64,000 nucleotides of DNA from Candidatus Poribacteria bacterium (GTDB lineage Bacteria; Poribacteria; WGA-4E; PCPOR2b). The stretch lies in NCBI GenBank assembly GCA_022822785.1, contig JAJEAL010000026.1, positions 1 through 64,000 of the forward strand, given 5' to 3'. Numbering within the stretch: the first letter of the stretch is position 1; the number at the start of each line of letters is the position of its first letter. A program made the translations under genes and the position numbers. Below the pieces are notes generated by a model, which was not told where the DNA came from, did no database searches, and saw nothing but the letters and a program-made list of their open reading frames with translations. Below are positions 17,950 through 30,253 of this stretch, piece by piece.

Positions 17950-20910
17950 TTAGGAAAGCGGCGGCGGTTCACGATAGCCTTGATAAAGCTGACGTTTGAG
18001 ATCGGTATTTACATCTGGTTTCGATAATTTGGTGTAGAGTTCCAGTTTGCTATTGACGAAATCCAATAAAATTTCATCAATTACCTCATTAAACTTGTGC
18101 TGTCGATTAGACTCCGTATTGTCAGCTTCCATCACCTGCCGAAGCTCTTCGTGCTCGTGTATCTTTTGGTTAATGGTCGCGATATCAACCTTATCTTCCC
18201 CTGTGAAATCTGTTTGATAGGCATCGTTCAGAGCGTCAATAATCCTGGATAGAAAATCCTGCTCAGGTTCCCTGATTGTAGCGACCTCGCCGCCAATCCC
18301 TTCGACCTCACTATCCTCCGCTTCAAGGGAAAGTGTCATATTATCATGCGTTTTCTGTAGGCGAAACGAATCCAAGTCCACAGATGCGAGGACATCGTGC
18401 GGGTCAGCGCTATCTCGTTTCGGCAACTTCTTGTTGAGATGACGACTGAAGATGTACAGCTTTTCTAACGCTACATCGGTGAAGGTAATCAACTGTGAAA
18501 TGTATCCGTAGAGGCGGAGGTAACTCTGCAAGGTAGAGCGGAATTCTTCCCGCTCGTTCATTTTAAGCTCTAACCACTTTTCGACGATGCCATCAAGAAC
18601 TGTCTGTAGCAATTCATCCGGTCGATCCGATTCAAAAAAGATACCGCAAAACTCCTCGATGGCCTCCTCGCCATAGAGTTCAAAACCGTCCAACTGGCTC
18701 TGTAGGTCATACAGCCGATTCGGGTCGATCTCCTCCGGGAGCGTCGTGGTCTGATAGTAAGTCTGAAACGCCTCCCGCACCTGCTCCGGTTCATTCACAA
18801 AGTCGAGTACCAGCGTATCTGTCTTGCCGGTGGCAACGCGATTCAGGCGACTCAAACTCTGAACGCATTGCAGCCCGTCCAACCGCTTATCGACGTACAT
18901 CGTCTGTAGCATCGGTTCATCGAAACCGGTCTGGAATTTGTTCGATACAATCAAAATCCGATACTCAGGGCTTTTGAAGCTATCCGCAATCGAAACGCGC
19001 GATGGCAACCCGTTCATTCCGTCCTCCGTGTAGTCCCGCTCGCTATCGGTGTCGTGCACCGTGCTGCTGAACGCTACCAGACAACCGTAAGGCAGTCCCA
19101 TCTCCCGCATCTGTTTATCGAACTCTATCTTATATCTGACGCAGTGTAACCGGGAGGGCGTAATCAGCATCGCCCGTCCCTTCCCTTCAATCGTCTTTGC
19201 GGTCCGGGTGGTAAAGTGCTCCAAGATAATCCGGGTCTTGGCCTCAATGCTGTGGGGTTGCAGGTCAACGTAGTTGGTCAATGCCCGCAGCGTCCGTGCC
19301 TTCTCGTACTCTTTATCCTCCGGCACACTCTTGACCAGCTGAAAGTATCTCTGAAAGGTGGTATAGTTCTGGAGCACGTCCAATGTAAACCCTTCGCTGA
19401 TACTCTGACGCATCGAATAGACATGGAACGGGACAAATTGTCCATCCGCGCCCTTCCGTCCAAACAGTTCTAGGGTCTTGTTTTTCGGCGTGCCGCTGAA
19501 ACCGAAATAGGAGATATGATCTTGTATCCTGCGCCCCTCCATCTCCTCAAGGATGCGAGCGTCTATATCCGATACGTCGTCGGGGTCATCTTCCGTTACC
19601 TCTGCCTCAATCCCCTTTGAGAGCGAGGCTCTGAGATTCCGGGCGGACTCACCACTCTGCGAGGAGTGTGCCTCGTCGATAATCACGGCGAAGGTCTTGC
19701 TTTTAAGCCTGCCAATCTCTTCTGCAATCACGCTAAACTTCTGAATCGTCGAGATGATGATGTCTTTGCCGGATTCGAGGAAACCTCTGAGTTGTGCCGA
19801 AGTTGCGTCAACCGGATGCACCACACCTGCCGCCCGCTCCACCTGCTTAATTGTGTCTTGAAGCTGCTTGTCAAGCACGCGCCGATCCGTCACAACGATC
19901 ACGGAGTCGAAGATGCGATTGGTATCATCCCGAGAGCGGAACAGATGCGTCAGCAGGTGCGCCAACCACGCGATGGAGTTCGACTTACCGCTCCCTGTGG
20001 TATGTTGGATGAGGTAGTTATGCCCAACTCCTTCCGCCACGATAGCGTCTTTCAATTTACGAATGACATCAAGCTGATGGTATCGTGGGAAAACGAGGAC
20101 GGGGTGCTTCACGTCTCTTACCCCACCGATGTCAGGGTCGTAAACCTTCTCGGTGGTCTCCTGCTCATGGATGAAGTTGTCGATTAACTCCATCAGGTTA
20201 TTGGGCTTTAGGATATCCTCCCACAGATAGGCGGTCTTGTGACCGTCCGGATTCACCGGGTTTTCGATACCCTTGTTAAACGGAAAGAACCGTGTCCCAT
20301 CTCCCTGCAATTGAGTTGTCATTGAGGCCTTTTCATTGCCCACCGCAAAGTGAACCAGGCACCGCTTGAATTGGAACAACGGCTCTCTCCGATCCCGATC
20401 CGCCCGGTACTGTTTCTCGGCATCTGCCAGCGTCTGACCGGTGAGGCTGTTCTTCAGCTCCATCGTCACCAACGGCAGACCGTTGAGGAACAACGCCATA
20501 TCGACCGATTTTTCGTTCCGCTGCGAATACTTCAACTGCCGAACGAGGGAGAATCGGTTCTTCTTATAAAGCCGTTGATGCTCAGGATTCATGCCACTTG
20601 ACGGGCGGAAGTAGGTCAGGTTCAAGCTACATCCCCTATCTTTAATCCCATTCCGCAGCACGTCCAACACCCCACGACGTCCAATCTCTCTACTCACACG
20701 GTCGAGGAGTTTAACCGGTGTATCCTCTCCGTATTGGATTTCCAGTTTCTGATACTCCTCCGGTTGCGTATCCTGAATAAATCGCAGTGTCTCAGTGGGA
20801 ATCAGGCAAAGGTCTTTATTGTAGAGGACAGGTTGTCGAGAATGGTAGCCGGACCGGTTCAGGTGCCCTTCGATGTGATCTTCAAAATTTTCTTCTTTAT
20901 AGGTCGGCAC
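17950..20910 (-). CDS. hsdR: Type I restriction enzyme, R subunit
   Basis: The 986-residue restriction and translocation subunit of a type I R-M system. The N-terminal nuclease domain shows the PD-(D/E)xK-type E151-L152-K153 (VTMELKNS). The SF2 translocase follows with Walker A T305-GSGKS310 (HTTGSGKS), DEAH at 412-415 (IIDEAHSSQSG), FGFSGTP, and the late LIVSNKFQTGFDEP and LSRLNRVATGK helicase motifs, then a C-terminal helical region that binds the methylase. The length suits the family. The start is a GTG at 20910, three bases after the hsdS stop, which implies cotranscription. No frameshift or truncation is seen, so the subunit is probably functional. Confidence 0.95.
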   Translation of the reverse strand: MPTYKEENFEDHIEGHLNRSGYHSRQPVLYNKDLCLIPTETLRFIQDTQPEEYQKLEIQYGEDTPVKLLDRVSREIGRRGVLDVLRNGIKDRGCSLNLTYFRPSSGMNPEHQRLYKKNRFSLVRQLKYSQRNEKSVDMALFLNGLPLVTMELKNSLTGQTLADAEKQYRADRDRREPLFQFKRCLVHFAVGNEKASMTTQLQGDGTRFFPFNKGIENPVNPDGHKTAYLWEDILKPNNLMELIDNFIHEQETTEKVYDPDIGGVRDVKHPVLVFPRYHQLDVIRKLKDAIVAEGVGHNYLIQHTTGSGKSNSIAWLAHLLTHLFRSRDDTNRIFDSVIVVTDRRVLDKQLQDTIKQVERAAGVVHPVDATSAQLRGFLESGKDIIISTIQKFSVIAEEIGRLKSKTFAVIIDEAHSSQSGESARNLRASLSKGIEAEVTEDDPDDVSDIDARILEEMEGRRIQDHISYFGFSGTPKNKTLELFGRKGADGQFVPFHVYSMRQSISEGFTLDVLQNYTTFQRYFQLVKSVPEDKEYEKARTLRALTNYVDLQPHSIEAKTRIILEHFTTRTAKTIEGKGRAMLITPSRLHCVRYKIEFDKQMREMGLPYGCLVAFSSTVHDTDSERDYTEDGMNGLPSRVSIADSFKSPEYRILIVSNKFQTGFDEPMLQTMYVDKRLDGLQCVQSLSRLNRVATGKTDTLVLDFVNEPEQVREAFQTYYQTTTLPEEIDPNRLYDLQSQLDGFELYGEEAIEEFCGIFFESDRPDELLQTVLDGIVEKWLELKMNEREEFRSTLQSYLRLYGYISQLITFTDVALEKLYIFSRHLNKKLPKRDSADPHDVLASVDLDSFRLQKTHDNMTLSLEAEDSEVEGIGGEVATIREPEQDFLSRIIDALNDAYQTDFTGEDKVDIATINQKIHEHEELRQVMEADNTESNRQHKFNEVIDEILLDFVNSKLELYTKLSKPDVNTDLKRQLYQGYREPPPLS

Positions 20911-20913
20911 GGT

Positions 20914-22203
20914 CTAAACCTCGTTTCGGACATCTATCTTGCCGGTCACGGCTTCGGAGATGAGGGATTGACGGTATTCTTTAAGGAGTTCAATCTTTCG
21001 CTGCTCTGTGGATATTAGTTCGTCAATTTGTCCGGTTTTGTGGTTGAGGAAGTTGGCGATTTGCGTTTGTTCTCTATCCGGAGGAAAAGGGATTTTGACA
21101 CCCATTAATACAGTTTTGCTGATGTTATCCCTTGTTGCCCCAAAGAACAGAGGGATAACCGTATTAAGGAAGGAGGCAGAATGTATGAAGTAAAACAGGA
21201 ATTTTGAATCCACTCTTGTTGCGCGGAGACCGGCTACTTGGGCACTTAAAATTGAGGGATAATCAAAAGCGTAATATGTACTTTCTCCTGCTCGCCTGCC
21301 AATCATTACAATCAGTGTGTCACCATGACAGAGTTGGTTTTGCTTGAGTCTTTTCACCTGTTGAGTTGGCACCCGTTTAACTTGTTTCATCTTAATGGAT
21401 TGTGTGATGTCGCCTATACGGAATATTGGGATTCCTTTATCTGTATATGATTCACTTCCGAACTCGGAATAACCGCCTATAAACAGAGCAATTTGTTTGA
21501 TTTGCGTCACTTCCCAATGTGTTGGTATCTCCCCAATCCACTCTATCCCCGACGGTTTCATCTCTACATTCGGGTCAAGTCCCTTTGTTACTACCTGATT
21601 TATCAGGACGGTTCGTTGTTCGTGGAGCAGTTCTACCTGTCGTTCTTTGATGCGGATGAGCTCGTCGATCTGTCCTGTCTTGCGGTCGAGGAAGTTGACG
21701 ATTTGAGTTTGTTCCTGTTTAGGAGGAAAGATTGTGTGGATATTTTTGAAGTCCTTTGGATACAAGCAATACTGATCTTTGCATCCTCCATAGGAAAACC
21801 GGAGTGACTGGGTCATATAGAGCGGAGTTCGGTACAAATACTCAAAAAATTCTGGAATTAAATCTCGTCTCGGTTGACATACAACGTATGCGGTGCTTAC
21901 TCTGCCTTCTGCCGGGGCAACTCCAACCGCACCTTGCCACATTCGCATTTTGTTATAAACTAAGTCTCCTTCACAAATACGTTTACCGTTTTCTGTTCTA
22001 CTAGAAACCCTGACGATTTGATCAGAACTGTACTCTTGAGGAATAACTCCTGCCCGTTGAGTTACTGAAAAGGGCAGAAGATGAGGGTGCCCTCTATCAC
22101 TACGGTCTGAAAATATAGCAAAGTTTCTCAGAACCTGCCAGTGTTTAGGAATTTCGCCAATCCATTCTAAACCACTCTCTTTATATTCAGGATAACGTTT
22201 CAT
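20914..22203 (-). CDS. hsdS: Type I restriction-modification, specificity subunit
   Basis: A 429-residue specificity subunit that determines the DNA target for methylation and cleavage. It has two target-recognition domains, each starting with a WIGEIPxHW motif (GLEWIGEIPKHWQV near residue 13 and GIEWIGEIPTHWEV near 221) and each followed by a conserved helical spacer with NFLDRKTGQIDELI or NFLNHKTGQIDELI. That duplicated layout is the hallmark of HsdS and predicts a bipartite target. The ATG at 22203 lies four bases downstream of the stop of an hsdM relic (22208-22291), while the intact hsdM lies more than 6 kb upstream. The recognition sequence cannot be derived from the sequence. Confidence 0.95.
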   Translation of the reverse strand: MKRYPEYKESGLEWIGEIPKHWQVLRNFAIFSDRSDRGHPHLLPFSVTQRAGVIPQEYSSDQIVRVSSRTENGKRICEGDLVYNKMRMWQGAVGVAPAEGRVSTAYVVCQPRRDLIPEFFEYLYRTPLYMTQSLRFSYGGCKDQYCLYPKDFKNIHTIFPPKQEQTQIVNFLDRKTGQIDELIRIKERQVELLHEQRTVLINQVVTKGLDPNVEMKPSGIEWIGEIPTHWEVTQIKQIALFIGGYSEFGSESYTDKGIPIFRIGDITQSIKMKQVKRVPTQQVKRLKQNQLCHGDTLIVMIGRRAGESTYYAFDYPSILSAQVAGLRATRVDSKFLFYFIHSASFLNTVIPLFFGATRDNISKTVLMGVKIPFPPDREQTQIANFLNHKTGQIDELISTEQRKIELLKEYRQSLISEAVTGKIDVRNEV

Positions 22204-22207
22204 TATT

Positions 22208-22291
22208 CTAAACCTCGCTCAGTAAACCTTCGTTTTCTCGCTCATGTGCTGGAGACTCACCGATAATCTCCTTCGGCAAGTACAGCGATGT
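22208..22291 (-). pseudogene. Relic of an hsdM 3' end
   Basis: Read on the minus strand these 84 bases encode 27 residues and a TAG stop, ending ERENEGLLSEV. They align without gaps to the C-terminus of the intact HsdM (TSLRSRQEIADEM...ERKSEGLLNEV), with about 15 of 27 identities including TSL, ERxxEGLLxEV. An in-frame TAA lies immediately upstream, so nothing longer is coded. The stop codon is four bases before the hsdS ATG, the usual hsdM-hsdS junction. It is best read as the remains of the original hsdM partner of this hsdS, or of a duplicated hsdM end created when the cargo was inserted. Confidence 0.75.
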
Positions 22292-22333
22292 TTATTGAGT
22301 TTAAACAGTGACTTTGATTAAAATTGTATTCGG

Positions 22334-25300
22334 CTAGAATCTTCTTTCTTCGTCAATCTTTTCATATTCAATGGCATCTTTCAATCCATCTACAAATTCA
22401 TCAATCCATCGCTTGACATTCTCGTTATCTTCTCCCTCTTTCAGGCGCAGCAGCTTCTGTTGTTTCTCTTTATAGTGCAGGCTACCTGGCCCCCACCATC
22501 CTTCTGTTAAATAATTTGAACGCAGGCTGCTGCGTACTTCGTCTCGCTCACCGTAACGAACAAGAAGTTCTCGCGCTAGAGAAGTCCGCCATTCTCCCAC
22601 TGAAAGAGTTTTAGGTACAAGTCTGGAGGCAAGATACCATGCCCGGTTTTCTATATCGTCGTCAATCCATTCCCAAATTTTTCCGGGCGGAATGAGTGTT
22701 AGTGATCCTTTTCTTTGTTCTCTAGGCAAATAGCTTCCCTCTCTCAGCCAGCGTTCTAGGGAAGCTACTCTTGAAAAATTCGTTTGGTCCTCTAAAAGTA
22801 TGCTGACTTGTTCCCATACCTCCGCAGGATATTGTTCTGTAATTTGATCGAGCACCGAACACGTTTGCGAGAAAGCACCAACAATCGCCCCATCATGCCC
22901 AAAGTGAGAAAGTATTGGTTCCACAATCTCTAAACTTTTTTCGGGATAATGGTGTAGGAAAACTTTCCCGATTTCCACCCAATAGTAATCAGTCATTGTA
23001 TCAAACCTATATCGATTTAATTCTTCAAACAGGAGTGGCTGAGAGAGTACTCGGAAGGTCAAATCACAGGGTAAAGTCGGCTCTGGTTTGTCGAAAATGT
23101 AGTAGCAGTGGTAAAGATGTAATACAATTGAAGCGGTAGATTTATCGGTGACACTCAACAGAAACTCGATCCACGCCGTGAAGACTTCCTTGGATAGCCT
23201 CTCAATCGCTTTACTGTAGGTGAACATGCCGAAGTGATTGATGTTGATAGTACCACTCGTAGCAAGTTCGAGAATACGTAAACCCGCTCGATCTGTCATG
23301 CTAGAACGATTCGTAAGTTCTGGAATTTCTACATTAAGTGTAGGATCAGCCACTAGTGCATCAAGTTGTTTTTCCCATTCTGCTACATCGCTGTCAAAGA
23401 TTGCGCGGAAATAGCCTCCCAGAAAATAGACACTCGCATTTTCCCCTGCGCTTCGTTGGGCATCAAGAAGTGTTGGCAGCAGGTCAAATCCATCATCTCG
23501 TTTTCCTAGCTCATTCCCAAACCTATAACCATTCTTTGCCTCAACCGTGACAAGCCAATACAATTCCGATTGCAAAAGAGAAGGTCTATCAATAGCTTGC
23601 TGGGCGAGTTTTTCAATCTGAGGTTGTGCTTGATCTGCGTGATTATAATCTTTGTCGAATTTGTCCTCTAGCAAATCCATTCCAACATACCGTTGCATCA
23701 CAGAATGAAAGTCTGAACTAACTAATTCCTCCTTGAGTTTTTCAAACTGTTGTCGGATTTCGGTTAGCAGACCGTGGTCCCCATAGGGTTCATCATAATA
23801 CAGAATTTGGCTAATTGCCTCAATGAGTTGCTTTTCGTTTACATATCTTTTTTCCACAATGCTTTCGACTGTCTCGACAACCATATCACCTATATCAGCA
23901 ATTCTTCCAAGTTCACCTGCATGTTCAAGTAGAATAACCACTCCCTCTTTACGTTCATCCTGGGGCAGATGTTCTAATTGTTCAGACAGAAGTTGCCACA
24001 CTCGTTTGTAAGCTTCCCAAAATTCCCCATATGTTTCAGGTATCCATAGCTTAGGTTCCGGACGTAACCCTTGATATTCCGGACTCCCGATTCGCGAAAA
24101 GTGTCCTGATTGTAATGCAGCATCGCATGCCCTTAATGCAAGAATACGACGTTCTTTTGAGTCTGACTCAAATGCCTCTTTTAAGACAGGAAAGCGCTTT
24201 GCTGGAGAGGCTTCGGTTGGTGCGACTTTGCCGGGAGCTGGTGAAAAGAGTTCAGCAAATATTCCGCTTGCGTTGTTTGAAACGCCCTCATTTTCTGCTT
24301 CGGCAAGGGCGAGAAGTAACCGCGCGGCATCGACAAATAAATCTTCCCACATGGCAATTTTTTCAAGTGCCCATATTACGTTTCTGCGTCCCTCTGTGAA
24401 GTGCAAAAGAGTCTCTTTATCCCAAGTACCTATTGTTCTCATCAAACATCTCAGAGCAGATTTTGGATTCGCTTCAGCCAGCGCTGAAAAAAAACTGCTG
24501 CCCAGCCTAGTTTTCAGATTTTCATTGTTTTGAAAGGGTCCATTAGGACCGAGAAGGTCCTCGACAACTCTTGAGGCGGCTTCTGATTCCGCAGCATATT
24601 GAAACATTTCGTAGAAACACTCAACCAATTCTTCTGGTAGATCTTGGGTAAATATTTCAAGTTTGAATAGCCTGTGATGTCTCTCCCACCACTGCGTCCA
24701 TAATTTGATGTGAAGTGCTTTCGGTGTAATATATAGTGTAAATTCACCTTGAAGGATTTTACGCTCTCTGAGTTGGTGGATGATATCTTCAAACTTATCC
24801 AAAGTAATTTGTGGATTAGCCTCTTCAATCTTTTTGGCGATGGCTTGGGCTTCCCTAGCAACGGATCGCTCATAGCCAAATCGCTTAAAGAGTGCGAGAT
24901 GCTGAAGGACTAATCGCCGTTGTTCCGTGCTGTCGCTATTTGGGGCATCCCCTGCGGCGATATAGCGTTCCCAGGCATCGACTGTGCTAGGAGGTTTAAG
25001 CAAATCCTCTGGGTAATTCACCAAGTTCCATCCGATAACATGTGCTACCCTTGGTGAGCCATCACAAAGTTCTGCCCATCGGTTGGCTTGGTCCGCAGGT
25101 ATCTGATACTCCTCAGTAATAATGTTGCGAATTTGTTCGTCTTCTAGTGGTGGAGTATCATAATAGGTAATGCCTCCGGCTCTCTCCTCGTAATCATTAT
25201 AAATGGTGATCAATTTAATCCTTGGCCCACGATATCTCAGTTTATCCCAGATATAAAATCGGCTGTCCGGATCACATTCATCAATTACCAAAATGGCGGA

Positions 25301-26149
25301 GAAATGATTGTCCTCTCGGAGAAGTTGAATCATCAAATCGCTATACCGAAATTGAGAAGCCGAGCAGTAAATAACAAGTGGGGATAAATCCTCAGTTTTG
25401 GTTGCCTCCAAAACGAGTTTTGTTTTGCCGATGCCGGGCTCACCCCATACCCGTACATGAACCGTGTCATCGTTTCGCCGCAATTCATTTTGAATGTTTG
25501 CAATCAATTCGTTTTGTGATTGACCCGGGAAAAATGGGACTCGCATATTTGCATCTTGCGACCAGCTACTGTGTGTTTGAAATTGAGCATTATCACGTCC
25601 AGTTACCCACAATGCCAGTGATGGAAAGAACTTGAGGAAGCCGATCAGGTTGTTCTGACTCCACACTTCAACTTTGGGGTGCCGATAATCACACTGTTCA
25701 AGGTAATTTTCAATGTGAGTTAGGGCATTTCTACGTTGAGGTTCAACAAGGTCAATTCCAGTACAAACAAGAATGTAAGCACCACCGGCCTCAAGACAAT
25801 CGCGAATACTTTCCCCAAGGTGCTGCCGTTCAGGTGTCTTTGTACCGAAGAGTTCCTTCCGAATTTCTGATTCCCGCCACGGCCTAAAACTTTGCCCTGC
25901 TTTAACCTGGTAACTCGTTCTACCGGGCTTAATTATTCCGGATCCCGTTGCAATTTGAACTTCATCAACGGCAGCATCAACCCCACCATCTGGAATATTG
26001 ATTCGACTGGACACATTAATTTTACCGGTTTCGATTCCAATCCTCCGCGCTTCCACCCGCAGCAACCTCTGAAAGAAGTCAACTGCTGTCCGCTCGTCAA
26101 GCCTGCCGAGATCATCGTTTGTGACGGTGAAAATAGTATTAGAATTCAT
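22334..26149 (-). CDS. Large NTPase with N-terminal nuclease-like domain (Avs/STAND-like)
   Basis: A 1271-residue protein with three parts. Residues 1 to about 170 look like a PD-(D/E)xK restriction-endonuclease-like domain: a helix with E33, then PDGGVDA (D54, D58) and YQVKAG (Q81, K83). Residues about 210-450 form a P-loop NTPase with Walker A G236-EPGIGKT (RVWGEPGIGKTK), Walker B ILVIDECD (D290, E291) and a later CDGSPRVAHVIGWNL resembling a STAND winged-helix region. The remaining 800 residues are mostly helical, with no recognisable catalytic motif, as in sensor regions of antiviral STAND proteins. It sits between the PIN-like gene and hsdS. This layout matches Avs-type defence proteins, but no named family is assigned; an effector or AAA-type nuclease is the alternative. 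Confidence 0.72.
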   Translation of the reverse strand: MNSNTIFTVTNDDLGRLDERTAVDFFQRLLRVEARRIGIETGKINVSSRINIPDGGVDAAVDEVQIATGSGIIKPGRTSYQVKAGQSFRPWRESEIRKELFGTKTPERQHLGESIRDCLEAGGAYILVCTGIDLVEPQRRNALTHIENYLEQCDYRHPKVEVWSQNNLIGFLKFFPSLALWVTGRDNAQFQTHSSWSQDANMRVPFFPGQSQNELIANIQNELRRNDDTVHVRVWGEPGIGKTKLVLEATKTEDLSPLVIYCSASQFRYSDLMIQLLREDNHFSAILVIDECDPDSRFYIWDKLRYRGPRIKLITIYNDYEERAGGITYYDTPPLEDEQIRNIITEEYQIPADQANRWAELCDGSPRVAHVIGWNLVNYPEDLLKPPSTVDAWERYIAAGDAPNSDSTEQRRLVLQHLALFKRFGYERSVAREAQAIAKKIEEANPQITLDKFEDIIHQLRERKILQGEFTLYITPKALHIKLWTQWWERHHRLFKLEIFTQDLPEELVECFYEMFQYAAESEAASRVVEDLLGPNGPFQNNENLKTRLGSSFFSALAEANPKSALRCLMRTIGTWDKETLLHFTEGRRNVIWALEKIAMWEDLFVDAARLLLALAEAENEGVSNNASGIFAELFSPAPGKVAPTEASPAKRFPVLKEAFESDSKERRILALRACDAALQSGHFSRIGSPEYQGLRPEPKLWIPETYGEFWEAYKRVWQLLSEQLEHLPQDERKEGVVILLEHAGELGRIADIGDMVVETVESIVEKRYVNEKQLIEAISQILYYDEPYGDHGLLTEIRQQFEKLKEELVSSDFHSVMQRYVGMDLLEDKFDKDYNHADQAQPQIEKLAQQAIDRPSLLQSELYWLVTVEAKNGYRFGNELGKRDDGFDLLPTLLDAQRSAGENASVYFLGGYFRAIFDSDVAEWEKQLDALVADPTLNVEIPELTNRSSMTDRAGLRILELATSGTININHFGMFTYSKAIERLSKEVFTAWIEFLLSVTDKSTASIVLHLYHCYYIFDKPEPTLPCDLTFRVLSQPLLFEELNRYRFDTMTDYYWVEIGKVFLHHYPEKSLEIVEPILSHFGHDGAIVGAFSQTCSVLDQITEQYPAEVWEQVSILLEDQTNFSRVASLERWLREGSYLPREQRKGSLTLIPPGKIWEWIDDDIENRAWYLASRLVPKTLSVGEWRTSLARELLVRYGERDEVRSSLRSNYLTEGWWGPGSLHYKEKQQKLLRLKEGEDNENVKRWIDEFVDGLKDAIEYEKIDEERRF

Positions 26150-26326: not shown

Positions 26327-26827
26327 CTAAGTGTCCTCGCGCAGCCGTTGAATATCATCCTCACATATAAACGCCACCGTCACCCCATTTCGATGGAATA
26401 CGTCACGGAAATCCCACCACCCACTATCCACCGCTTGCAGGATAGCCGGTCTCTCCGAATGGGCAACTGCAACGGCGATAAATTTCCGATCATCGGGATC
26501 GAAGTCATCCAATGCTGGGTCGTCTGGGAACTCTTCAAACGTATTCTCTAAACCATCAATAGGCGTAATGTGGATTAGATCACACCGTTTAGGGTTTCTC
26601 CAGTTTCTCAACACCCACCGGAGAAACCTATCGCCAACGTCATTACCTGTGAAATGTAGATTTTGGGCATACTCACCGAGAATTTGCCAGTTATCATCGA
26701 GCACTAACTTCACCTCACCACGCATAATTTCCTCAAGCCTCTCGGCACAAGTTTCCACGCAATCTTCGGAGGCCTGTTTTGAAAGCGCGTTGGCAACCAC
26801 AGCGACATTTGTATCTACAACAACCAT
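26327..26827 (-). CDS. PIN-like nuclease-domain protein
   Basis: A 166-residue protein with the pattern of a PIN-domain nuclease. The first acidic residue is D5 in MVVVDTNVAVVANALS. A later cluster FDPDDRKFIAVAVAHSE gives the conserved acidic-plus-helix motif, and a final AVDSGWWDF supplies a further acidic position. PIN proteins use such residues to bind Mg2+ and cut RNA. The ATG at 26827 shares its A with the TGA of the ATPase gene upstream, so the two are translationally coupled. It lies 177 bases upstream of the large NTPase gene. A toxin or effector role is an inference from context; no antitoxin of the Phd/VapB type is visible. Confidence 0.72.
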   Translation of the reverse strand: MVVVDTNVAVVANALSKQASEDCVETCAERLEEIMRGEVKLVLDDNWQILGEYAQNLHFTGNDVGDRFLRWVLRNWRNPKRCDLIHITPIDGLENTFEEFPDDPALDDFDPDDRKFIAVAVAHSERPAILQAVDSGWWDFRDVFHRNGVTVAFICEDDIQRLREDT

Positions 26828-28074
26828 CAACTCATCACTTTCCGCTGCTGCATCTCAACTTTGGTCTTTTTAATTAATTCGCCTGTAACATCGCCGAAGA
26901 AGTCTTGGGGCCAATTCCGGATGTTGCCGTATTCATCAACGTCAAGCCGTTCAATTTCAGATGTGCCATCGTTGATTTCGCAGAAATAGAGTGCTGTATC
27001 AACCGAAGCAATTTCTTTCTCGGCGATACGTCGTTGCAATCGACTAAGCAGATACTCGCTGTGACTCTCAAGGATAATCTGTACGTTCCGATTTGTCACG
27101 GCATCAATCAGAACATCCGCTAACTCTGTTTGTGCCTTCGGGTGCAGATGTGCCTCTGGTTGTTCAAGGATGAGGATTGAGCCTTCAGGGGCGTAATAGC
27201 AGAGAATCAGCACCGGCAGGACTTGGGAAACGCCAAACCCAATATCTATCAGTTGGACTTCGGGACCGCCTTTGTACTGTCTGATGAAGAATGCGTAATC
27301 CTGTCCTGTATCAGAAAGAGGTCGAAGTTCATAGGAGTCAATCAGTTCCAGTCGTTTTAACCATTTTGGGATCTGTTCGTCGGTAGGGAGGCCTCGAATC
27401 CTGCCCGAAAGCATAGCGGAAATCGTCTTTTCTCCAAACTGCCCGACCCCTTTTGGATGATCGCCCCCCCAAGGGTAATGGCGTCGAGGATATTCGCGGA
27501 GCGGACCGAGGTAATGGATTCGAGAGAATAAATTTTCAAAGGCATTCTGAAGAGACAAATAATCTTCTCCATAATTACTTGGGCTAACAAGTCCATAACA
27601 TCGAAACGAAGTCGCTGGTATATTATTATTTATGAGCTTGTATCCTTGCGGTGTCCACTCTATCCCCACGTTGTATTTACCAAATGTATAACGGAAACCT
27701 TCTAACTCTGTATCCCCATATTTATTTTTAACAATAACCGTTGAGAAAGAAAGGGAGTCGGTAAAGTTGCTTCTAATATCTATTTGTTCAGGCATCCTCC
27801 ACGACACAGAAATGTTAAGATTTGGATCATGTGCAGGACGGTGAATGATATTATCAAAATTACCCAAGTTGACCAATGACCCCTCATCACCAAAGTAGAG
27901 CGGTTCATTCCAATCCGATGGTTGTTCTGCGGTCTGCTTGAGCATAAGCAGTACCTGCAAGATACTGGTTTTGCCGGAGCTATTCGCGCCGAAAAGCCCG
28001 GTCAATGGGGCGAATTGTAGCCTACCGGTATCTTTCCATGACTTGAAATTCTGTGCTCTGAGTTCGGTAATCAT
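26827..28074 (-). CDS. AAA-family (DUF3696) ATPase
   Basis: A 415-residue ABC/OLD-like ATPase. Walker A is G29-ANSSGKT36 after an N-terminal ITELRAQNFKSWKDTGRLQF typical of this family. The signature and Walker B region SILILEQPEAHLHPKAQTEL and the H-loop IILESHSEYLLSRLQRRI follow near residues 310-350. The C-terminal LDVDEYGNIRNWPQDFFGD matches the DUF3696 tail. There is no TOPRIM domain. A good GGAGGG precedes the ATG at 28074. Together with the coupled PIN-like gene it forms a two-gene module; OLD-like ATPases with nuclease partners are common in defence loci. The gene is preceded by a 451-base repeat-rich spacer after hsdM. Confidence 0.85.
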   Translation of the reverse strand: MITELRAQNFKSWKDTGRLQFAPLTGLFGANSSGKTSILQVLLMLKQTAEQPSDWNEPLYFGDEGSLVNLGNFDNIIHRPAHDPNLNISVSWRMPEQIDIRSNFTDSLSFSTVIVKNKYGDTELEGFRYTFGKYNVGIEWTPQGYKLINNNIPATSFRCYGLVSPSNYGEDYLSLQNAFENLFSRIHYLGPLREYPRRHYPWGGDHPKGVGQFGEKTISAMLSGRIRGLPTDEQIPKWLKRLELIDSYELRPLSDTGQDYAFFIRQYKGGPEVQLIDIGFGVSQVLPVLILCYYAPEGSILILEQPEAHLHPKAQTELADVLIDAVTNRNVQIILESHSEYLLSRLQRRIAEKEIASVDTALYFCEINDGTSEIERLDVDEYGNIRNWPQDFFGDVTGELIKKTKVEMQQRKVMS

Positions 28075-28222: not shown

Positions 28223-28350
28223 AATTGGACTAATCCCTGTTTTCCGTTTCATCTGTTTAATCCGTGATTCAGACGATAATTATGCTCTCCCTCATTCCCT
28301 TAAAGTATCCACCGATCCGATAAAAGGTTGGAAAGCCGAGACAACCCCTT

Positions 28351-28525: not shown

Positions 28526-30253
28526 TCATAACCCCCAAACTTCATTCAGCAAACCTTCGCTTTTCCGTTCAAGTGCCAACATCTCATCGGCAATCTCCTG
28601 GCGCGAACGCAGCGACGTGTTTTCGTAGAAGTATTGATTGAAGTTAATTTCGTACCCCACCTTATCCTTCTTTCTGTCTATCCAACTGTCCGGCAGGTGC
28701 GGTTTGATCTCTCGGCGGTCGTAATCATCAATATCTTCTGTGAGGGAGACGCGCTCATAATCTCGCAGAGTAGTATCAGGCTTCGGGTTGCCGCGCCTGT
28801 CCCGGAGCACCTCTCCTGTCTCCTCGTCAATCAATGGCCTCTCAACTGTCACCTTCGTGTAACCGAAAAAGTCGTTTGGATAAATTTTAGAGTGCTCGCT
28901 TTCTTCAAAGTTGGTGTAAAGTTCTATCAGTTGGTGTGCATGTCGATTCCCAATTTGTCTTCTTTTTTCACCAAGCCCTCTATCCATGGGTTCCCAGAAG
29001 TCAACTGCATTGATAAGCTGAACCGAGCCTTTTCTTTGTTCTAATTTGTTGTTATTTAAAATCCAGAGGAAGGTTGGGATTCCTGTATTGAAAAATATAA
29101 ATTCGGGTAACGCAATGATACACTCCAACCAATCTTTTTCGATAATCCAGCGTCGGATTTCGCTTTCACCGCCGCCGGCATCTCCCGTAAAGAGCGGTGC
29201 CCCGTTAAAGACAATTCCCACGCGACTCCCGCGGTCCTCCATCTTGGAGAGCATATGCTGCAGAAACAACAACGATCCATCGGAGGTGCGAGGTGTCCCG
29301 GCTGAGAATCTGCCGTTGGCGTTCTGTGCTTCCGTTTTCACCGCCGCTGCATCGGATTTCCAACTGACGCCGAAGGGCGGATTGGTTATCATATAATCGA
29401 ATCGTTCCCCTTGAAATTGGTCATTAGAGAGGCTAGACCCATGTCGGATATTATCGGGATCTTCTCCAGTAATGAGCATATCTGACTTGCAGGTTGCATA
29501 GGTCTGTGCGTTCAGTTCCTGCCCCAACAGCCGAATGTCCGCATCCGGATTAATCTGTTCGCGGAAGTATTCCTTCCCAATCGTCAACATGCCGCCCGTT
29601 CCGCAACACGGATCGAAGATACTGCGTATCACCCCCTGTCCGCTCAGATCTTCACGGTGTTCCGCAAACAGCAGCGAGACCAATAACCGCACCACATCCC
29701 GCGGCGTGTAATGTTCACCGCTCGTTTCGTTGGACATCTCCGAAAATCGCCGGAGTAGTTCCTCAAAGACCTGTCCCATCGTGTGGTTGTCCACCTTATT
29801 CGGGTGCAGGTCTACCTCCGTAAACTTATCGCAGAAGATAAACAGCCGGTTGTTGTTATGCAGTCGCTCGATGAAACGGTCAAGATTGAAGTTTTCGATG
29901 ATGTCGCGCACATCCTGACTGAACCCGTTGAGGTAGTTCTGAAAGTTGAGATAGATATTGTTCGGATCGGCTTTCAGACGAGATAGGTCGTACGGGGAGG
30001 TGTTGTAGAAGCTGGTTTTTATCTCCCTAAGAATAATCGGTGGTAGTAACTCCTCGGCCACTTTGTCGTTGTATTGATCGTAGGTACTGATGGCTTTCTC
30101 TTTTCGCTCGCCCTCGTCCAAGATGCAGTCCAAGCGGCGTAGCACCAGAAACGGGAGGGTGATGTCGCCATATTCGTGCGGTTTGAACAACCCGCGCAGC
30201 ACGTCATCCGCTACATTCCAGACCAAATTTGCAAGTTCTTGATAGTTTGCCAT
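28526..30253 (-). CDS. hsdM: Type I restriction-modification, M subunit
   Basis: The 575-residue methyltransferase subunit of a type I R-M system, which modifies adenine in the target set by HsdS. The N-terminal NYQELANLVWNVADDVLRG domain precedes the SAM motif IFD214-PCCGTGGM and the catalytic N291-PPF (ITNPPFGVSWK). RFSEMSNETSGEHYTPRDVVRLL is the usual segment before the SAM motif. The C-terminus ends ERKSEGLLNEVWGL, which the relic before hsdS echoes. AAGGAG precedes the ATG at 30253. The gene is first in its minus-strand run but is separated from hsdS by 6.3 kb of cargo. It appears intact. Confidence 0.95.
   Translation of the reverse strand: MANYQELANLVWNVADDVLRGLFKPHEYGDITLPFLVLRRLDCILDEGERKEKAISTYDQYNDKVAEELLPPIILREIKTSFYNTSPYDLSRLKADPNNIYLNFQNYLNGFSQDVRDIIENFNLDRFIERLHNNNRLFIFCDKFTEVDLHPNKVDNHTMGQVFEELLRRFSEMSNETSGEHYTPRDVVRLLVSLLFAEHREDLSGQGVIRSIFDPCCGTGGMLTIGKEYFREQINPDADIRLLGQELNAQTYATCKSDMLITGEDPDNIRHGSSLSNDQFQGERFDYMITNPPFGVSWKSDAAAVKTEAQNANGRFSAGTPRTSDGSLLFLQHMLSKMEDRGSRVGIVFNGAPLFTGDAGGGESEIRRWIIEKDWLECIIALPEFIFFNTGIPTFLWILNNNKLEQRKGSVQLINAVDFWEPMDRGLGEKRRQIGNRHAHQLIELYTNFEESEHSKIYPNDFFGYTKVTVERPLIDEETGEVLRDRRGNPKPDTTLRDYERVSLTEDIDDYDRREIKPHLPDSWIDRKKDKVGYEINFNQYFYENTSLRSRQEIADEMLALERKSEGLLNEVWGL

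Follow-up and report, generated by a model that had tools for sequence, protein, structure and literature searches.

A decayed hsdM 3′ end directly upstream of hsdS in a poribacterial type I restriction-modification operon carrying defence genes

A type I operon with embedded defence genes

The stretch of DNA that we analysed (64,000 nucleotides; hereafter the window) belongs to a poribacterial genome of 5.6 Mb in 147 contigs. The host bacterium is sponge-associated. The gene order on the minus strand is hsdM, AAA ATPase, PIN-like, STAND, a short hsdM-like relic, hsdS and hsdR, with the following features:

28526–30253, minus strand: complete hsdM, methyltransferase subunit, 575 aa (Pfam N6_Mtase, HsdM_N)
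28526–28618, minus strand: intact own tail of the complete hsdM
28258–28274, strand not given: single copy of the 17-bp repeat GTCTGAATC(A/G)CGGATTA, in the gap between hsdM and the cargo
26827–28074, minus strand: cargo AAA ATPase, HEC-03B-like, 415 aa (PADLOC HEC-03B, E 1.3e-111)
26327–26830, minus strand: cargo PIN-like protein, HEC-03A-like, 167 aa (PADLOC HEC-03A, E 5e-30)
22334–26149, minus strand: cargo PD-Lambda-4A-like NTPase, here called STAND, 1271 aa (PADLOC PD-Lambda-4_A, E 1e-38)
22292–22333, minus strand: possible but uncertain 5′ extension of the relic, up to where the preceding cargo gene ends (reached by the best alignments; upstream homology in sister species G001)
22208–22291, minus strand: hsdM 3′-end relic, 27 codons and TAG, directly 5′ of hsdS (match to HsdM aa 546–572)
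22213–22216, minus strand: GAGG Shine-Dalgarno-like motif within the relic, 9 nt before the hsdS ATG
20914–22203, minus strand: hsdS, type I specificity subunit, 429 aa (Pfam PF01420; PADLOC Specificity_I, E 6.5e-112)
17950–20910, minus strand: hsdR, type I restriction subunit, 986 aa (Pfam SWI2_SNF2, HSDR_N; PADLOC REase_I)

With hsdM, hsdS and hsdR on one strand and their diagnostic domains present, the locus has the make-up of a type I restriction-modification operon and is predicted to methylate and restrict DNA. Genes scoring as HEC-03A/B and PD-Lambda-4_A lie between its hsd genes and constitute embedded defence cargo. This cargo is missing from the empty-site relatives described below.

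The relic matches the end of hsdM

Translation of positions 22208–22291 on the minus strand gives TSLYLPKEIIGESPAHERENEGLLSEV and a stop. The peptide aligns without gaps to the C-terminus of the local HsdM, TSLRSRQEIADEMLALERKSEGLLNEV (aa 546–572), with 15 of 27 residues identical and a BLOSUM62 score of 58. The highest score among 20,000 shuffles was 42, and elsewhere in the six frames of the 64 kb no 27-aa window scored above 26. The original prediction, made from the sequence alone, had reported a gapless match of 27 in-frame residues plus a stop with about 15 identities, ending four bases before the hsdS ATG. Both details hold, since the relic TAG and the ATG at 22203 are separated by AATA. 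The match extends to the DNA level (67.8% over 87 nt, E 6e-9). An in-frame TAA lies directly 5′ of the relic and an in-frame ATG is absent, which makes it a stop-to-stop fragment rather than a leader gene.

In sister species G001, homology to the relic runs on upstream with a 4-nt insertion (GCTGTGCTCCCTGAatgaAGG), suggesting that the original relic was probably longer than the present 84 bp. The corresponding 5′ extension in the window (22292–22333) is plausible but not significant alone, as 42% of shuffles reach its score. It had also been proposed to compare the relic with HsdM families other than the local one. A closer family did not emerge: the local hsdM ranks 12th among 38 poribacterial hsdM tails by closeness to the relic and most of these are about equally distant, so that the relic could not be assigned to a different HsdM lineage.

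Empty sites and sister species

Orthologues of hsdM with 77–85% identity occur in more than 30 related poribacterial genomes. In four of their loci (L086, L101, L102 and L103) the site is empty: hsdM is followed directly by hsdS, with stop and start overlapping as ATGA. Loci of other relatives carry ~1 to 8.5 kb of variable genes between hsdM and hsdS, whose matches include HEC-03, a Piwi-domain protein with DUF4365, a ParE-like toxin, Uma2, PD-(D/E)XK and a CAAX protease. At L107 3859–6707, within the hsdM–hsdS slot, a DUF4365 protein adjoins a Piwi-domain protein, and the pair is possibly an Argonaute-type defence module.

Three species of this genus (G000, G001 and G002) share the order HEC-03, STAND, relic and hsdS. 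Their orthologous relics are 71–73% identical to each other over a 45-nt core and differ at second codon positions by 6, 5 and 3 changes, compared with 0 in the hsdM orthologues, a pattern showing that the sequence has ceased to encode protein. It is most simply read as a non-coding remnant older than the three species. By its significant homology, its occurrence at the expected place and its lost coding constraint, 22208–22291 is an hsdM pseudogene relic. The four empty-site relatives, together with a relic and cargo common to three species, support the original view that hsdS once directly followed hsdM. The prediction had further held that the relic is not a fresh target-site duplication; orthology in three species with the same cargo and the non-coding pattern of change agree with this and point to an old scar.

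The HsdS proteins of G001 and G002 are only 35–38% identical to that of the window, and this divergence suggests that HsdS specificity probably changed after the scar had formed. STAND homologues (57–64%) occur outside hsd in 14 other Poribacteria with no hsdM tail nearby, which argues that the tail is a feature of the hsd locus rather than of the cargo.

hsdM-tail copies across Poribacteria

The scar phenomenon is wider than a single relic. Using a position matrix built from 32 real hsdM ends and a cut-off of 28 bits, we detected ~30 further hsdM-tail copies in 22 loci (the window and L141 included). All of them lie on the same strand as hsdM, most at the boundaries of modules. With reversed sequences the matrix gave at most 27.7 bits. 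No tail above threshold was detected in six cargo-bearing loci. Across 73 whole genomes, the tail core was found almost only on contigs holding an hsd locus, and in complete chromosomes only at the locus itself; the reversed core pattern had no matches in these genomes. A genome-wide mobile repeat is ruled out by this near-complete confinement. Among the non-poribacterial loci within L051–L076, a search for own-tail copies downstream of hsdM returned two weak matches (L055 and L059), both probably due to chance.

A single locus can hold up to three tail copies, with a ~43 bp core whose identity to the end of the local hsdM reaches 100%. In L036/L096, the tail and a near-identical 3′ flank precede two modules. 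The 5′ limits of the copies vary from 17 to >115 nt, with a complete hsdM upstream. Of 28 tail copies, 24 are closer to the hsdM of their own locus than to others (permutation p 0.0005), which fits either recipient remnants or local duplication. In genome G033 (L047 and L115), hsdM is followed by a second, broken hsdM in which aa ~376–402 are joined to ~545–575. This piece represents a stage in the decay of a longer copy. Besides the loci of the three relic-bearing species, a fourth one has a longer hsdM pseudogene in the same position.

Isolated hsdM-tail copies were also observed away from the complete locus, in G029 (C24, ~44599 and 46800) and G038 (C8, 43788–45004). Those of G029 include an hsdS-tail. 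They are perhaps the remains of an older type I locus.

The ends of the PIN-like gene

Away from hsd, HEC-03A genes end in ordinary stop codons. Most copies within the locus instead run into the hsdM tail and stop at an internal TGA, in a frame other than that of hsdM, which supports insertion of HEC-03 into the hsdM–hsdS junction and speaks against a shared functional peptide. Tail-derived stops of this kind were seen at the ends of the PIN-like gene in L085, L087, L089, L099, L106, L111 and L112. Positions 26327–26345 of the window possibly hold the same stop, in a stretch too decayed for certainty.

A short repeat and a second slot

Copies of the 17-bp repeat number 23 in 136 kb of hsd loci and 3 in 208 kb downstream of hsdR, a 12-fold higher density within the loci. 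The repeat and its inverse were seen in L096, L100, L110, L091, L112 and others, often directly beside the end of a module and in some cases fused to the start of hsdS. This inverted repeat may contribute to the origin of the scars. Relics of the same kind were noted at the hsdS–hsdR junction, a second slot, namely an hsdR start in L083 (10130–10276) and an hsdS end in L104 (9932–10102). Transposase_31 (YhgA/Rpn-like) genes recur between hsdS and hsdR (L091 6358–7476, L108, L111 and others; cargo cluster 3) and are possible agents of recombination at that slot.

Probable retention of the tail for hsdS translation

A GAGG motif lies in the hsdM end, ~9–10 nt before the hsdS ATG, so that the ribosome-binding site of hsdS is itself hsdM coding sequence. 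All three orthologous relics have the motif, as do most hsdM tails at empty sites, and Shine-Dalgarno-like motifs precede most other genes of the window. Identity to the hsdM consensus is 51% for the last 18 nt ahead of hsdS in 17 cargo loci. Both the 38 nt further upstream and the corresponding stretch ahead of 98 other cargo genes stand at a background level of 29%. Three hsdS starts mis-called by motif (L087, L089 and L104) weaken this contrast. Several loci retain a mere 17–22 nt stub of the tail. Within the three relics alone, the part proximal to the motif was not significantly more conserved (14/18 vs 25/42, p 0.24). As the tail holds the GAGG of hsdS and cargo loci often keep its last ~18 nt, selection for hsdS translation probably explains their retention. 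The original prediction is amended here in two respects: the relic cannot be assigned to a different HsdM lineage, and it is one of many scars, with the hsdS ribosome-binding site as the likely reason why it is kept.

Origin of the relic

We consider it likely that the relic is the degenerate 3′ end of an earlier hsdM, left by a gain of cargo through homology at one end, and that its last ~18 nt were kept for the hsdS ribosome-binding site. At the start, an old hsdM would have stood directly ahead of hsdS. Cargo (HEC-03 and the PD-Lambda-4-like gene) would then have entered beside a complete hsdM. Only one end of the incoming DNA would have recombined through homology, within hsdM, and the opposite end would have been joined illegitimately. 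The recipient would thereby have acquired a new complete hsdM together with the cargo, and a remnant of its old hsdM would have stayed in front of hsdS. That remnant would subsequently have decayed except for the ~18 nt serving hsdS.

The hsdM identity of the relic, the empty sites, the presence of the relic in three species, its lost coding constraint and the many comparable scars at defence-module boundaries were all observed. From these we infer the entry of cargo by recombination, including the mechanism of joining, for a relic that has no nearest particular hsdM. In homology-facilitated illegitimate recombination, one end joins by homology and the other illegitimately, as described for natural transformation and conjugation (PMC3240628). 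An exchange of this kind would leave behind part of the recipient gene, broken at a variable point, as is seen at the hsd locus. The architecture of the loci, with hsdM complete, cargo that varies and an hsdM fragment of differing length before hsdS, fits recombination with homology at one end, and it corresponds to the complete donor gene and variably broken recipient gene that this process is predicted to yield. The poribacterial case is deduced from architecture only.

Local tandem duplication of hsdM, or of hsdM with cargo, followed by decay of the downstream copy, would require no foreign DNA at that step. The broken second hsdM piece in L047/L115 and the closeness of tails to their own hsdM are both compatible with it. 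We nevertheless regard it as unlikely, because the cargo differs among loci and occurs elsewhere, so that a gain of DNA is also needed, and because the window relic is ~32% diverged from the local hsdM.

The hsdM tail might instead be a recombination site, comparable to integron attI/attC, at which a recombinase inserts cassettes that each bring a copy of the site. Tail copies do lie in one orientation at module boundaries, up to three per locus, with a ~43 bp core that can be identical to the local hsdM end, and in L036/L096 even the 3′ flank recurs before two modules. Like integron gene cassettes, the poribacterial modules are separated by repeated sequences in a single orientation; unlike in integrons, the element repeated here is the end of a gene, derived from the neighbouring hsdM and varying in length. 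A site of constant extent is not seen, given 5′ limits between 17 and >115 nt. No conserved or linked recombinase was seen in the representative cargo clusters examined, among which some ORFs are unannotated, and a recombinase could lie elsewhere. The tail core is also almost absent elsewhere in the genomes, and HEC-03 outside hsd carries no tail. Because the copies vary in length and the clusters examined showed no linked recombinase, this reading is the less likely one, and we consider it very improbable.

Similarly small odds attach to insertion of a transposon or repeat at the hsdM–hsdS junction with a long target duplication. The 17-bp inverted repeats, enriched 12-fold in the locus, abut several tail stubs, but known target-site duplications are much shorter and less variable than those seen here, and most tails, including the window relic, do not abut the repeat.

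That the tail peptide is a functional docking tag common to HsdM and cargo proteins could be suspected because the PIN-like gene often ends right at a tail, which reads LERKSEGLLNEVL. We rejected this idea, and see next to no chance for it, as the frame in which the PIN-like gene enters the tail is a different one, with a TGA stop inside, and as the window relic has neither a start codon nor coding constraint. Chance resemblance, or the unrelated hsdS leader peptide named in the original prediction as its counter-case, draws on the mere 27 residues of the relic and deserves practically no weight, being contradicted by a score far beyond the shuffle distribution, a match also at the DNA level, orthology in two sister species, a real hsdM at that position in empty-site loci, and the near-restriction of this hsdM-derived core to the hsd locus in 73 genomes.

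The hsdM–hsdS junction of Poribacteria could be an ordered archive, in which each gain of defence genes was added beside hsdM and left one tail scar. Scars would then be older towards hsdS, and the operon would record its acquisitions while the embedded ribosome-binding site kept hsdS expressed. Scar polarity is visible in four of six multi-scar loci, and the overall correlation between scar age and distance from hsdM is not significant (Spearman −0.17, p 0.38). We regard the archive as a whole as a rather improbable proposal.

Relation to known systems and implications

Defence genes embedded in type I operons are already known (PMC11411939; PMC12255303). Examples are tgvAB within the type I operon of Vibrio cholerae VPI-2 (PMC11411939), DarTG2 between hsdS and hsdR in EPEC (PMC12255303), and RloF between hsdR and hsdS in Campylobacter jejuni (cited in PMC11411939). 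Like these operons, the poribacterial loci carry anti-phage genes between hsd genes, with cargo that scores as HEC-03 and PD-Lambda-4 (PADLOC). Unlike in these operons, the cargo lies mainly between hsdM and hsdS and is highly variable across ~25 related genomes. The poribacterial module boundaries are also marked by displaced hsdM ends, scars that do not feature in the passages of PMC11411939 and PMC12255303. The searched portions of open-licence full texts contained no description of hsdM-end scars marking embedded defence modules.

Such scars provide a readable record of insertions in a setting where it is otherwise unclear how cargo enters without breaking the operon. They suggest a simple rule by which insertions are tolerated upstream of the hsdS ribosome-binding site, which lies within hsdM. 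The hsdM-tail scars may also serve as a sequence signature for finding embedded defence modules.
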